A stretch of 64,000 bases of DNA from Pseudomonas sp. PDM16. Its GTDB lineage: Bacteria; Pseudomonadota; Gammaproteobacteria; Pseudomonadales; Pseudomonadaceae. The position numbers and the translations under genes were made by a program. Where the stretch lies: assembly GCF_014851865.1 (NCBI RefSeq), contig NZ_JACVAM010000001.1:868001-932000 (forward strand), read 5' to 3'. The notes under the pieces were generated by a model. The model was given only the letters and a program-made list of their open reading frames with translations, searched no databases and was not told where the DNA came from. Every line of letters begins with the position of its first letter. Position 1 is the first letter of the stretch. Of this stretch, positions 58,394 through 64,000 are shown in pieces.

Positions 58394-60835
58394 ATGCATC
58401 ACGCCACCGCCGTCTGCAGTCGCGGTCTGCCGACTCTGCTGTCTCTTGCCATCGCCATGGCCTTTTCTGCGCCTCTGATTGTCCAGGCTGCCGAACCGGC
58501 ACAGACGCAGAGCAGCATTTACCGTTTCGACATTCCTGCGCAGGCGCTCGATGGTGCCCTGGCGGGGTTCTCGGCGGTAACGCGCATCCAGGTGCTGGTG
58601 CCGGCCGAGCTGACCCAGGGCATGAGTTCACCAGGCCTGGCAGGTGACCATGCGGCGAGCGAGGCATTGGCGCGTCTGCTGGCGGGGACTGGTCTGGTGG
58701 CCCGTTTCGTCGATGGCGATACGGTGACCTTGGAGCGCTCCACAGCCACCGACGGGACGTTGGAGTTGGGAGAAACCACCATCATCACCAACCAGTTGGG
58801 GGCGATCACCGAGGGTTCGCAGAGCTATACGCCAGGCTCCATCGCCACGGCCACGCGACTGGTGCTGACGCCTCGGGAAACCCCGCAGTCGATCAGCGTC
58901 GTCACCCGGCAGAAAATGGATGACTTCGGTCTCAACAACATCGATGACGTCATGCGTCAAACGCCCGGCATCACGGTTTCTGCCTACGATACCGACCGCA
59001 ACAATTACTTTGCCCGCGGCTTCTCGATCAACAACTTCCAATATGACGGGATTCCCTCGACGGCCCGCAACGTCGGCTATTCCGCCGGCAATACGCTCAG
59101 CGACATGGCCATCTACGACCGTGTGGAAGTGCTCAAGGGCGCTACCGGCCTGCTCACCGGGGCCGGCTCGCTCGGCGCCACGATCAACCTGATCCGCAAG
59201 AAGCCCACCCGTGAATTCAAGGGCCATGTCGAACTGGGAGCCGGCAGCTGGGATAACTACCGCTCCGAGCTGGACCTCAGCGGGCCGCTGACCGAAGCGG
59301 GCAATGTCCGTGGTCGGGCGGTCGCCGCCTACCAGGACCGGCACTCGTTCATGGATCACTACGAGCGCAAGACCAACGTCTACTACGGCATTCTCGAAAT
59401 CGACCTGAGCCCCGACACCCTGCTCAGCGTCGGCGCCGACTACCAGGACAACGACCCCAAGGGCTCGGGCTGGTCGGGTAGCTTCCCGCTGTTCGACAGT
59501 CAGGGTAATCGCAACGACGTCTCCCGCTCCTTCAACAACGGCACAACGTGGAGCAGCTGGGAGCAATACACCCGCACCGTCTTCGCCAACCTCGAGCACG
59601 ACTTCGCCAACGGCTGGGTCGGCAAGGTGCAGCTCGACCACAAGATCAACGGTTACCATGCTCCCCTCGGCGCGATCATGGGCGACTGGCCCGCTGCGGA
59701 TAACAGCGCCATGGTCGTTGCACAGAAATACACCGGCGAAACCAAGAGCAATTCGCTGGACATGTACCTGAGCGGCCCTTTCCAGCTTCTTGGCCGCGAG
59801 CATGAGCTGGTGCTCGGTACCTCGGCGTCCTTCTCCCGCTGGCAGGGCAAGAGCTACTGGAACCTGATCGGCTACGACAACACCACCGACGATTTCGCCA
59901 ACTGGGATGGCGAGATCGGCATCCCGGACTGGGGTGCGCCTTCTCAGTACATCGACGACAAGACGCGCCAGTTGGGCAGCTACATGACGGCCCGTTTCAA
60001 CGTGACTGACGACCTGGACCTGTTTCTGGGTGGGCGTGTGGCCGATTACCGTGTGACCGGGTTGAACCCGACCATTCGCGAGTCAGGACGCTTCATCCCC
60101 TATGTCGGCGCCGTCTACGACCTGGACGACACCTACTCGGTGTATGCCAGCTACACCGATATCTTCATGACGCAGGACAGCTGGTACCGCGACAGTGACG
60201 ACCAACTGCTCGAACCCAACGAAGGCCAGAACTACGAGTTGGGCCTCAAGGCCGAGTACTTCGAGGGCCGTCTGAACGCCAGCCTCGCCTACTTCGAGAT
60301 CCACGAAGACAACCGTGCCGAGGAAGACGCCTTCTACAACAGCAACCCGACCAACCCCGGGGTGTTCTTCGCGTACAAGGCCACCAGCAGCAAGACCAAG
60401 GGCTACGAGGCGGAAATTTCGGGTGAGCTGGCGCCGGGCTGGCAAGTCCAGGCGGGTTATACCCACAAGATCATCCGTGACGACGGCGGCAACAAGGTGT
60501 CCACCTGGGAGCCGCAGGACCAGTTGAGCCTCTACACCAGCTACCGGTTCCAAGGCGCCTTGGACAGGCTTACCGTTGGCGGCGGTGCCCGCTGGCAGGG
60601 CAATAGCTGGCAAAGGGTCTACAACAACCCCCGCAGTGAGTGGGAGAAGTTCTCTCAGGAGGACTACTGGCTGGTGGACCTGATGGCGCGCTACCAGATC
60701 ACCGATGACCTGTCGGCCAGCGTCAACGTCAACAACCTGTTCGACAAGACCTACTACACCAACATCGGTTTCTACACATCGGCGTCCTATGGCGATCCGC
60801 GGAATCTGATGTTCAGTACCCGCTGGAACTTCTGA
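58394..60835 (+). CDS. TonB-dependent siderophore receptor with signalling domain
   Basis: An 813-residue outer-membrane receptor of the FpvA/FoxA/FiuA transducer type. Signal peptide 1-32 (MAFSAPLIVQAAEP); STN signalling domain about 43-115 (FDIPAQALDGALAGFSAVT); TonB box region near 125; plug about 155-270 (PQSISVVTRQKMDDFGL); 22-strand barrel to the final WNF. Its ligand binding should release the FecR-like anti-sigma hold on the ECF factor. The exact siderophore cannot be told. The start is the ATG at 58394. Confidence 0.94.
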   Translation: MHHATAVCSRGLPTLLSLAIAMAFSAPLIVQAAEPAQTQSSIYRFDIPAQALDGALAGFSAVTRIQVLVPAELTQGMSSPGLAGDHAASEALARLLAGTGLVARFVDGDTVTLERSTATDGTLELGETTIITNQLGAITEGSQSYTPGSIATATRLVLTPRETPQSISVVTRQKMDDFGLNNIDDVMRQTPGITVSAYDTDRNNYFARGFSINNFQYDGIPSTARNVGYSAGNTLSDMAIYDRVEVLKGATGLLTGAGSLGATINLIRKKPTREFKGHVELGAGSWDNYRSELDLSGPLTEAGNVRGRAVAAYQDRHSFMDHYERKTNVYYGILEIDLSPDTLLSVGADYQDNDPKGSGWSGSFPLFDSQGNRNDVSRSFNNGTTWSSWEQYTRTVFANLEHDFANGWVGKVQLDHKINGYHAPLGAIMGDWPAADNSAMVVAQKYTGETKSNSLDMYLSGPFQLLGREHELVLGTSASFSRWQGKSYWNLIGYDNTTDDFANWDGEIGIPDWGAPSQYIDDKTRQLGSYMTARFNVTDDLDLFLGGRVADYRVTGLNPTIRESGRFIPYVGAVYDLDDTYSVYASYTDIFMTQDSWYRDSDDQLLEPNEGQNYELGLKAEYFEGRLNASLAYFEIHEDNRAEEDAFYNSNPTNPGVFFAYKATSSKTKGYEAEISGELAPGWQVQAGYTHKIIRDDGGNKVSTWEPQDQLSLYTSYRFQGALDRLTVGGGARWQGNSWQRVYNNPRSEWEKFSQEDYWLVDLMARYQITDDLSASVNVNNLFDKTYYTNIGFYTSASYGDPRNLMFSTRWNF

Positions 60836-61586: not shown

Positions 61587-62045
61587 CTACACCGCCAGCA
61601 TGACCAGTTCGGCGTGAGCGCTGCTTTCCTCTATATGCAGCCTGGCCACGCTGATCGGCAGCTTGAAGCGCCGCGGTCCGGCACTGCCGGGGTTGATCCA
61701 CAGGTGACCGTCGCGCTCCTCGATCAGCGGTTTGTGCGAATGGCCGGTGACCACCACGCGTATGCCTTCCGGCAGTTGCGCCGGCACATGGGCCAGCTCG
61801 TGCACCACGTAAAGGCCGACACTGCCCAGCTGCAGCGTGGCTTGGTGTGGCAGCTCGGTGGCCCAGTCCAGGCCTTCGTCATTGTTGCCGCGCACGACGG
61901 TCAGCGGCGCCAGCGAGCGCAACGCATCGAGAATCTCTGGCTTGCCAATATCGCCGGCATGCACGATATGTTCGCAACCCTGCAGCGCCGCCAGGGCCTC
62001 GGGGCGTAGCAGCCCGTGGGTGTCGCTGATCAGGCCGATTTTCAT
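61587..62045 (-). CDS. YfcE/MJ0936-type phosphodiesterase
   Basis: A 152-residue calcineurin-like phosphoesterase. All metal-binding motifs are there: GLISDTHG, IVHAGDIG, VVRGNNDE, VVTGHSHKP, and the NPGSAGPRRF C-terminal block. Members hydrolyse phosphodiesters in vitro; the natural substrate is not known. The start is the ATG at 62045 (MKIGLISD). It lies 25 bases after the end of the atypical gene on its right. Confidence 0.9.
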   Translation of the reverse strand: MKIGLISDTHGLLRPEALAALQGCEHIVHAGDIGKPEILDALRSLAPLTVVRGNNDEGLDWATELPHQATLQLGSVGLYVVHELAHVPAQLPEGIRVVVTGHSHKPLIEERDGHLWINPGSAGPRRFKLPISVARLHIEESSAHAELVMLAV

Positions 62046-62070: not shown

Positions 62071-64000
62071 CTAGGGCCAACTGACATTTAATACTCTTAC
62101 GAACACTCTTTGACGCTCCTCCTCCGTTAACTGAGCTTCCAGCATTGTCTTCAGCTCATCAGGTGTCGCTGGCTTGGGCTTCCGGCTTGGTGGGCTTTTC
62201 AATCTCTTGTTATCGCCAAACCAGAGCACAAGGTAGACCCCGTGCCCCATAGACTTCGGCGCATGCACATATTGGGCAATCATCTGATTGCGCAATGCTG
62301 TCCATAACTTGTCGTGATCATCACGCTTGATCTCAATCGGCAGGGCCAACTGGTTGCGGTAGTCAAGTTGAAGATCGGCGCGCTTGTCTCCTGCATGGTC
62401 ATATTCCGGGGCAACGCCAATGCCGTGAGCATCCAGGCGAGAGCGCAAGCGGGCCAATAGAACATCGCGGCATAGGTTTTCTCCGCGCCGGCTGGGGGGC
62501 TGCCCATTGGGAATATTCCAGAACATCCGATAACCGTCGTCATTGGCATGGCGTAGTTCATGGGCGATGTCGTCTAGGTGACTCAAGGTAAGGTGCATTA
62601 GATCAGCGATATTCGCTGGCGCCTTGTTGGCCAGCACATCGGCGACTGCTTCCAAGCCCAGGAAACGAAATTCAGCTTCCCTTCTGCGCGCTAGCTGCTG
62701 CTCCAATGTGCTCCGAATCCTGTAGTGCTGAGACGCCATGGCCGGGATATCAAGTAGGCGTTGAAGTTCATTGTGGGTCTCTACCGTAGTTTGCGTACCC
62801 AGCCAGTCGATCATTCCGCGAAGTTCGTCGCCAAGATCCATCGCTGCAGTGACAAAGCCGCCTTGTCCCCGCTCTAGGTCGGCATGAGGGATAAGTACCT
62901 CGATCAAGCGGCCCAGAATAAGTTCTGGTTGGGAGGGGCACAGGGCCTGCAGTTGAATGCCTTGCATCAGGGTTTCAACCGCTAGCTGCATGGCTACATC
63001 GGCTTCTTCTGCTTCGCTGATGCGCTGCCAGAACTCTTCACTGTCGTCAGAGCTACCAGTCAGTACCTGTAGCGCTAGCCACAGAAGGCGCTGTTCAGCA
63101 TTGAGCTGTGGCGACTTCAACTTTTGTAGAGCCAGCGTAGCAAGACACTCCGGAGCGAACGCTAGAGCTGCCTTCAGCAACTGTCGCAGGTCATGGAGTT
63201 GCTGCGCAGTGGCCGCTTCGGGAAATTGCTGCAGCAATTCTGGAATTGCTAGCTGGGCGACCTTTGCATAGGAGCTATCCCCGCTCAGCAAGTACCCCAT
63301 GCCGGCCGAGGAGTTGCCTGTAGCAAAAGCACTGGCAGCGTGGAGCAACAGTACGCGACTAAAAAGTTCGGGGCGCTGCTGTGCGATTTGTGCGCACCAA
63401 GCGTTCAGCTCATCCAGTCCAAAGTGTGGTGTACAGAGATAAATAGCTACCAGTATTTCGACCCTGTCATCTGGTAACTCATCTACTTGTTCGGGAGTAT
63501 CGATCCAGTTCAGTTGCAGGCCAAGCAGGCAAGGCAGGCTGATGTAAAAGCGCTGCCCAGCCTGGTTCAGGTCAATGATCTCGGCAGCAGAGGGAAGGTC
63601 AGAGCGCTGCAGGCTTTTACGGAAACCAGATTCGGCAGCGCGCATAAGTTCATCGCCTAGATCGCTGTAGTTGGCGAAACGCTCGCTTGCTGTTTCCCCA
63701 TGGATATCCAAAAATCCGAACAGCCAAACTGTTGCCAGCTCATCAAGACGGCCAGTTGCGGCTTTAGCAGTAGTAATTGCGGGAAGTTCGGGGCGAATGC
63801 TCTGGGTTCTTTGGTACCTTTCCTCGGCTTTTTGCTTCTTGTAGGTGAGGGTTTGTGCTGCAGTTTCTAAGCGCCAGCTATTTTGTGCCAGATCGCAAGT
63901 CAGCCATTCATTCAGCCAGTCAGCCCTATCTGGGAACCTTTGCCCCCATTCATTCAGTACCTCCAGCGATAGCCCACTGGCTCCTCGATCTTGCAAAAGT
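62071..64000 (-). CDS. Large helical protein with C-terminal PD-(D/E)XK motif (5' end missing)
   Basis: At least 641 residues are encoded before the window edge; no start is seen (the first in-frame TTG, 63996, is not convincing), so the N-terminus lies outside. Most of it looks all-helical, like a repeat or scaffold region. The last 140 residues hold KRADLQL, then PIEIKRDDH (Glu555/Lys557 counted from 63996; codons near 62326-62337), then Gln in NQMIAQY and GVYLVLWF: the pattern of a PD-(D/E)XK nuclease fold. GC content is visibly lower (about 42 percent in one 60-base line) than that of its neighbours. No family name can be given. Confidence 0.78.
   Translation of the reverse strand, partial: LLQDRGASGLSLEVLNEWGQRFPDRADWLNEWLTCDLAQNSWRLETAAQTLTYKKQKAEERYQRTQSIRPELPAITTAKAATGRLDELATVWLFGFLDIHGETASERFANYSDLGDELMRAAESGFRKSLQRSDLPSAAEIIDLNQAGQRFYISLPCLLGLQLNWIDTPEQVDELPDDRVEILVAIYLCTPHFGLDELNAWCAQIAQQRPELFSRVLLLHAASAFATGNSSAGMGYLLSGDSSYAKVAQLAIPELLQQFPEAATAQQLHDLRQLLKAALAFAPECLATLALQKLKSPQLNAEQRLLWLALQVLTGSSDDSEEFWQRISEAEEADVAMQLAVETLMQGIQLQALCPSQPELILGRLIEVLIPHADLERGQGGFVTAAMDLGDELRGMIDWLGTQTTVETHNELQRLLDIPAMASQHYRIRSTLEQQLARRREAEFRFLGLEAVADVLANKAPANIADLMHLTLSHLDDIAHELRHANDDGYRMFWNIPNGQPPSRRGENLCRDVLLARLRSRLDAHGIGVAPEYDHAGDKRADLQLDYRNQLALPIEIKRDDHDKLWTALRNQMIAQYVHAPKSMGHGVYLVLWFGDNKRLKSPPSRKPKPATPDELKTMLEAQLTEEERQRVFVRVLNVSWP

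Follow-up and report, generated by a model that had tools for sequence, protein, structure and literature searches.

The NCBIfam profile NF058535 carries the name 'NACHT domain-containing antiphage protein EruA' and a curated cut-off of 1000 bits, set for the whole protein. A NACHT ATPase and a PD-(D/E)XK DNase are also combined in one polypeptide in bNACHT25 and bNACHT32 (clade 6); as described in the accessible portion of the source, their own nuclease is N-terminal and their sensor C-terminal, the reverse of the order predicted for EruA (PMC12169576). PDC-S01 (PADLOC model PDLC04791) is a single-gene defence candidate, and validation is pending for most such candidates according to the portion of PMC12988326 that was accessible. 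A literature search outside most subscription journals found no paper that treats EruA as an anti-phage protein, explains the names EruA and HyoA or reports a PDC-S01/EruA pair, and the pair's absence there does not imply that it is unpublished, since most subscription papers lay beyond the search. The sole gene called EruA among the literature matches listed is a SlyA-type regulator of E. coli, and the accessible part of the DefensePredictor paper (PMC13092281) gave no match for Eru or Hyo. The label 'antiphage' is used here because it is NCBI's family name; protective activity is a prediction.

The window (the whole 64 000-nucleotide stretch of Pseudomonas sp. PDM16 DNA that was analysed) ends inside an eruA homologue on the minus strand, the remainder of which was read in locus L002 (window position = L002 position + 59999). 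The features are as follows.

61587..62045, minus strand: calcineurin-like phosphoesterase gene, the downstream neighbour, outside the system (Pfam Metallophos_2, E 1.1e-37)
62071..64000, minus strand: eruA homologue, C-terminal part (NF058535 positions 689-1318, 499 bits, E 3.5e-149)
62074..62616, minus strand: PD-(D/E)XK (restriction-endonuclease fold) effector domain, predicted, 181 residues (AlphaFold2 pLDDT 92.3)
62284..62376, minus strand: catalytic codons, assigned by conservation: D 62374-62376, E 62332-62334, K 62326-62328 and Q 62284-62286
62617..64000, minus strand: helical (solenoid-like) region, visible part, proposed sensor (model of the ML96 orthologue; identity profiles)
L002:2072-5119, reaching window-equivalent 65118, minus strand: C-terminal frame (NF058535 positions 323-1318, 771 bits)
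L002:4830-6158, with an ATG start at window-equivalent 66091 (L002:6092), minus strand: N-terminal frame (NF058535 positions 5-329, 380 bits)

The whole gene has about 1340 codons, counting the sequence past the window edge. The part inside the window (62071-63999) is an open frame of 642 codons with an open 5' end and a stop that ends at 62071, as the initial annotation had anticipated in reporting a frame of over 641 residues running off the edge. The drop in GC that it described is confirmed for the whole gene, at 55.2% compared with a mean of 65.2% for the surroundings (s.d. 2.4, minimum 59.7; 184 overlapping 4 kb windows over the other ~96 kb), and so is its 25-base gap between the eruA stop and the phosphodiesterase start, provided that the methionine of MKIGLISDTHG (62045) is taken as the start. 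The GC content at third codon positions is 57% in the eruA C-terminal frame, 91% in ilvD and 78% in the phosphodiesterase gene. The gene is compositionally foreign within its surroundings.

The two frames jointly cover nearly the whole of NF058535 (5-329 and 323-1318). With the gene split in two, their scores of 771 and 380 bits each fall below the cut-off, which uninterrupted orthologues exceed (1145.7 bits for ML96, genome G279, and 1175 bits for P. mendocina). PADLOC and Pfam searches of the window protein returned no useful match. The HyoA profile (NF058534) is detectable over most of the length, with 141 bits for the C-terminal and 55 bits for the N-terminal frame, far under its cut-off of 1200. 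We therefore assign the window gene with good confidence to the EruA family, with an N-terminal NACHT module, a helical sensor and a C-terminal PD-(D/E)XK DNase; the assignment concerns family, domains and kind of mechanism. The window copy differs from the family in being split by a frame change, and its lineage stems from a branch in which an ATPase gene is usually found upstream. The five top-scoring uninterrupted EruA proteins in the genus sample (1433-1495 bits) form a distant branch from the window lineage; identity to the ML96 orthologue is 20-22% for the four that are included in alignment A1.

Walker A lies at residues 38-44 of the uninterrupted orthologue, placing the NACHT module at the very N-terminus, and Walker A G41xGK44, D83 and D86-E87 (ML96 numbering) are identical in all 77 aligned rows. 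These rows comprise 76 loci from the named scan described below plus the query, which is the ML96 protein itself, so that ML96 is counted twice. Residues 1-1175 of the ML96 protein were modelled with a pLDDT of 86. The model from residue 1 to about 480 resembles NLRC4 (Z 20.5, r.m.s.d. 4.4, 404 residues aligned), NOD2 (Z 18.9, r.m.s.d. 4.3, 379 aligned) and NLRP3 (Z 18.6, r.m.s.d. 3.5, 361 aligned); Walker motifs and structural matches together identify an N-terminal NACHT-type NTPase. EruA thus shares the predicted NBD-HD1-WHD-HD2 arrangement of these proteins (Z 18-20), but differs from them in carrying a C-terminal nuclease. No CARD, PYD or LRR is present among the Pfam matches of the two eruA frames at E up to 1, and because EruA has no N-terminal effector the usual NLR order is not directly transferable to it. 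Nor does EruA have the order of bNACHT clade 6 or the AVAST type, in which the effector is N-terminal to the NTPase. Past residue ~480 the ML96 model is helical, and the predicted domain order of EruA is NACHT, helical region and, last, nuclease.

The nuclease was modelled with AlphaFold2 from the window residues and an alignment of 64 sequences. The model contains the alpha-beta-beta-beta-alpha-beta core with the D...ExK signature of the PD-(D/E)XK superfamily (helices 46-64 and 104-116; strands 66-70, 82-86, 90-98 and 126-132). The closest structural matches are Can2 (Z 8.2, r.m.s.d. 2.8, 115 aligned), PaqCI (Z 7.9, r.m.s.d. 3.6, 121 aligned), EcoT38I (Z 7.8, r.m.s.d. 3.5, 123 aligned) and EcoRV (Z 7.2, r.m.s.d. 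4.4, 135 aligned), and a chain of the Hachiman HamAB complex is found at Z 6.2. The best Z of 8.2 is close to the 7 to 8 that models without a clear match reach, according to the tool's own note; most of the 50 structure matches listed are restriction or related nucleases. Foldseek gave no E under 0.001 for this model (best 6.9e-3), and sequence-profile searches yielded no relative of known structure for the nuclease and, for the remainder of the protein, nothing beyond weak P-loop matches. The catalytic D, E, K and Q are identical in 77 of 77 rows and invariant also in the 64 rows of alignment A2; E1234, R1242, D1244, E1258, K1260, Q1274 and Y1279 (ML96 numbering) do not vary in the 77 rows. 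The C-terminal segment is predicted with high confidence to adopt a restriction-nuclease fold. The initial annotation, which had proposed the structure prediction and search reported here for this segment, was accordingly right about a C-terminal PD-(D/E)XK nuclease with these four residues; the helical scaffold that it described is seen in the model of the ML96 orthologue, and the NTPase that it placed in the unseen N-terminus is the NACHT module beyond the window edge.

The middle of EruA is the least conserved part family-wide. Averaged over 600 random family pairs, identity is 37-53% for residues 1-384, 24-36% for residues 385-1152 and 47-48% for residues 1153-1344. In blocks of 96 residues, the window C-terminal frame is 82-96% identical to ML96 outside residues ~480-960 and 63-73% inside, while its identity to P. 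sediminis is 77-93% throughout. Over ML96 residues 577-672 the closest of the three is P. linyingensis (72% identical), followed by the window (63%) and P. sediminis (57%), unlike the whole ML96 sequence, which groups with P. sediminis and the window. We infer that the middle helical segment is the sensor, and its divergence between close relatives would fit an exchange of this segment by recombination.

The two eruA frames meet within a homopolymer run of eight G residues (L002:5077-5084; C on the plus strand), near codon 337 and about 1.1 kb past the window edge. The interruption follows the NACHT core, and no full-length protein arises from the assembly as read. No second G/C run of this length or longer occurs in 100 kb, and at this site the window differs in length by one base from all four relatives aligned as DNA. 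No other frame-breaking difference was found in the DNA alignment with three relatives of the P. mendocina group; the alignment with ML96 shows an additional cluster of indels of 14, 3 and 2 bases. Six relatives, including the uninterrupted ML96 orthologue, read GGNGGNG at the site, with no G run longer than two in four of them and a run of five in the other two. Against five relatives, dN/dS is 0.12-0.13 for the N-terminal part and 0.15-0.17 for the C-terminal part of the window gene, and because both parts keep these values the break is either recent or an error. Most likely the window copy has been recently inactivated, unless the G run is a sequencing error.

That the gene is intact in the living strain, the eight-G run being a sequencing or assembly artefact, is an alternative to which we give appreciable weight, short of even odds. 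The genome is a draft in 44 contigs, homopolymers are the usual site of sequencing error, and both the low dN/dS of the two parts and the lack of any further frame-breaking difference from the three relatives speak for it. However, long G runs are real mutation hot spots too, the short runs of the relatives indicate that substitutions had already lengthened the run, and three other high-scoring EruA-family genes in the genus are interrupted as well. An improbable alternative is that the run is a phase-variable switch, in which slippage turns a defence gene on and off: the frame changes exactly within the one long G/C run of the region and purifying selection acts on both sides of it, but the run is not conserved among the six relatives, for which one genome per species was compared. 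Recent inactivation, with the proviso of a sequencing error, is retained as our reading of the window copy.

In the genus as a whole, four of 13 high-scoring EruA genes are interrupted (L009, L011, L012 and the window), two by TAG and two by a frame change, compared with none of 15 lower-scoring relatives from the same search; the numbers are small. Either a cost imposed by the gene or errors in the assemblies may account for such interruptions.

The gene stands alone between ilvD, directly upstream, and the phosphoesterase gene downstream. It adjoins ilvD also in ML96, P. mendocina FFL34, P. sediminis PI11, P. linyingensis LMG 25967, P. guguanensis JCM 18416 and the Pseudomonas MAG C17 bin 54, and in four of these six records a phosphodiesterase gene lies within 8 kb on the other side of eruA. 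An empty site is seen in two of 24 other congeners (G008 and G001), where ilvD is directly followed by phosphodiesterase and glyoxalase genes with no eruA; the other 22 have neither eruA nor the phosphodiesterase gene within ilvD flanks of ~1.5 kb. No tRNA was found in the 40 kb rightwards from window position 60000. A PADLOC search of 12 neighbouring proteins left 11 without a match at E 1e-5, and the twelfth, a methyltransferase (L002:8661-9854) that matches MADS mad2 over its methyltransferase region (E 1.2e-26), is read as an rRNA-methyltransferase-like housekeeping gene. From the shared position beside ilvD in six Pseudomonas records and the lack of a tRNA, we read eruA as an old one-gene insertion, stable in its Pseudomonas group, rather than an island acquired recently by mobility. 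The setting suggested by the initial annotation, a defence island that is mobile or has several genes, is very unlikely: the GC contrast of four standard deviations and the presence of family members on plasmids (22 records with one query and 7 with another) and viral contigs (eight loci) would suit it, but the gene is single, its site is shared by the six records and its neighbours look like housekeeping genes. The same annotation was sound in proposing a defence-type gene with a nuclease and an NTPase; its suggestion of further island genes to the right, where ilvD comes next, is unsupported, and its candidate for an undescribed system belongs to the named family EruA.

Two observations concern the downstream neighbours. 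The phosphodiesterase at 61587-62045 is 58-61% identical to its counterpart in five relatives (L035, L054, L066, L067 and L069), in which the adjacent glyoxalase is 90-97% identical. In ML96, a frame of 484 codons (L064:12300-14030) lies between eruA and the phosphodiesterase gene; it is permease-like and, judged by eye, possibly of the NCS2 type.

EruA-family matches (E 1e-30) occur in only 28 of 298 genomes in the genus sample, including that of the window, and 12 pass the cut-off; the locus is thus not the housekeeping gene present here in all pseudomonads that the initial annotation had set against its own proposal. In the named scan, at least 531 relatives of the ML96-type protein were confirmed, of which 79 distinct loci were kept. 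The phyla of their records include Pseudomonadota, Acidobacteriota, Nitrospirota, Nitrospinota, Latescibacterota, Binatota, Gemmatimonadota, Thermodesulfobacteriota and Ignavibacteriota. The gene is a single frame in 76 of the 79, and the other three (L108, L124 and L135) are cut by contig or locus ends. That the two window frames are translated as two cooperating proteins, a NACHT piece and a helical-nuclease piece, is hardly credible: an ATG of the C-terminal frame lies 35 bases ahead of the run and both parts look selected, but none of these 79 relatives is split at this place and the N-terminal frame continues for about 80 out-of-frame codons.

A gene encoding an AAA_14 and DUF4143 protein, an ATPase-nuclease, lies directly upstream of eruA in 64 of the 76 intact named loci, as determined by neighbour clustering and direct search, and both domains are present in the three partner proteins tested. 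This proportion describes the ML96-type clade and not all EruA, the 79 loci having been kept from the larger set of confirmed relatives. The three cut loci were dropped before counting; among the 12 loci without a partner match, a contig end lies no more than 600 bases from the start of L112, L140 and L077, and among the 64, L083 and L128 are truncated and L110 and L113 retain weak or short remnants only. Two partners were tested further: both match PDLC04791 (E about 4e-168), and neither reached the cut-off of any NCBIfam model. The usual partner in the wider clade hence belongs to PDC-S01, from the description of which (in the accessible part of PMC12988326) it differs in standing next to a second gene, the candidate being described as a single gene; no PDC-S01 was found in the window genome. 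The association of an AAA_14-DUF4143 gene with EruA in its wider clade is new here.

The arrangement is that of an operon. In 58 cases a full-length partner frame (>300 residues) ends next to eruA, with a distance from partner stop to eruA start of -8 to 29 bases (median -2; n = 58, starts chosen by script) and an overlap of exactly four bases in 28 of the 58. Pairwise distances of partner and EruA correlate with r = 0.884, a value not reached in any of 1000 permutations, and shared species descent contributes to it. In a tree that includes nine PDC-S01 proteins not beside eruA, all 59 eruA-linked partners form one group (support 100/99), into which the independently found partner of G469 also falls; the tree was built with a careful method and has long outgroup branches. 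Of the 58 partners, 57 have the Walker A G and K, the other having a gap; D352 and K367 occur in 58 of 58 and E365 in 57 of 58.

Counting against a two-gene reading is an even class sample of 369 genomes, in which the EruA family was found in seven and PDC-S01 (PDLC04791) in 13, both at E 1e-60, and the two stand side by side only in G469. The six further EruA matches include the window itself, a remnant in G574 and a weak match of 246 bits in G375; in G351 and G511 no partner was seen upstream, and in G311 the contig ends at the point at which a partner would be expected. As for the 13 PDC-S01 loci, a contig end truncates three (L154-L156), and in nine none of the downstream frames matches EruA. 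The partner was not found in the 30 genus loci L004-L033, most of which have flanks of about 1.5 kb; these include the top-scoring genus EruA genes (L004-L010).

Upstream of the window eruA there is ilvD and no AAA_14-DUF4143 gene, and the window genome has no match to the partner protein (E up to 10) or to PDLC04791 (E 1e-60, at which 13 other genomes match). The window falls together with ML96, P. mendocina, P. sediminis, P. linyingensis and P. guguanensis in a single clade that lacks the partner, and the sister of this clade, MAG C17 bin 54, has the order ilvD, partner, eruA. The simplest reading is a single loss; the EruA tree was made with a quick method and has several long branches, with the placement of L014, L015, L118 and L140 unsure. 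Between ML96 and P. linyingensis the solo eruA shows dS 1.32 and dN/dS 0.135, indicative of purifying selection after the loss, and the partner is therefore not indispensable in that lineage.

Taken together, we consider it probable that EruA of the wider clade is a two-gene immune system, in which a dedicated branch of PDC-S01 with a D...ExK site is co-translated with, and has co-evolved across records of eight phyla with, an NLR-type receptor-nuclease, and that the Pseudomonas lineage of the window lost the partner, kept the receptor under selection and exchanged its sensor segment between close species. In the proposed mechanism, the winged-helix and helical parts would hold the NACHT module closed in an ADP-bound resting state, as in NLRC4 and NOD2. 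Recognition of a phage product by the variable helical region would open the module, and the opened NACHT modules would swap nucleotide and assemble. Assembly would bring the C-terminal nucleases together, so that DNA is cut and the phage or the cell is stopped. EruA would be produced from the two-gene operon with its dedicated ATPase-nuclease in much of the wider clade, while the lineage of the window would work, or have worked, without it. If this is correct, a receptor partner and a role open to testing can be assigned to PDC-S01, a defence candidate that is very common but has lacked an explanation. That EruA-type NLR proteins of this clade mostly travel with an ATPase-nuclease matters more than the broken window copy, and solo and paired EruA with swapped sensors at the same site offer a ready comparison for the role of the partner and the target of the sensor.

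Some mobile copies were also noted. One of the eight loci on viral contigs, L157, carries the partner ATPase and EruA together. The plasmid-borne EruA of Vibrio campbellii ATCC BAA-1116 is 56% identical to L004. Of the two records of nearly equal length for this plasmid, NC_009777.1 and NC_022271.1, one has the EruA match in one piece and the other has it in two pieces under two annotated genes.
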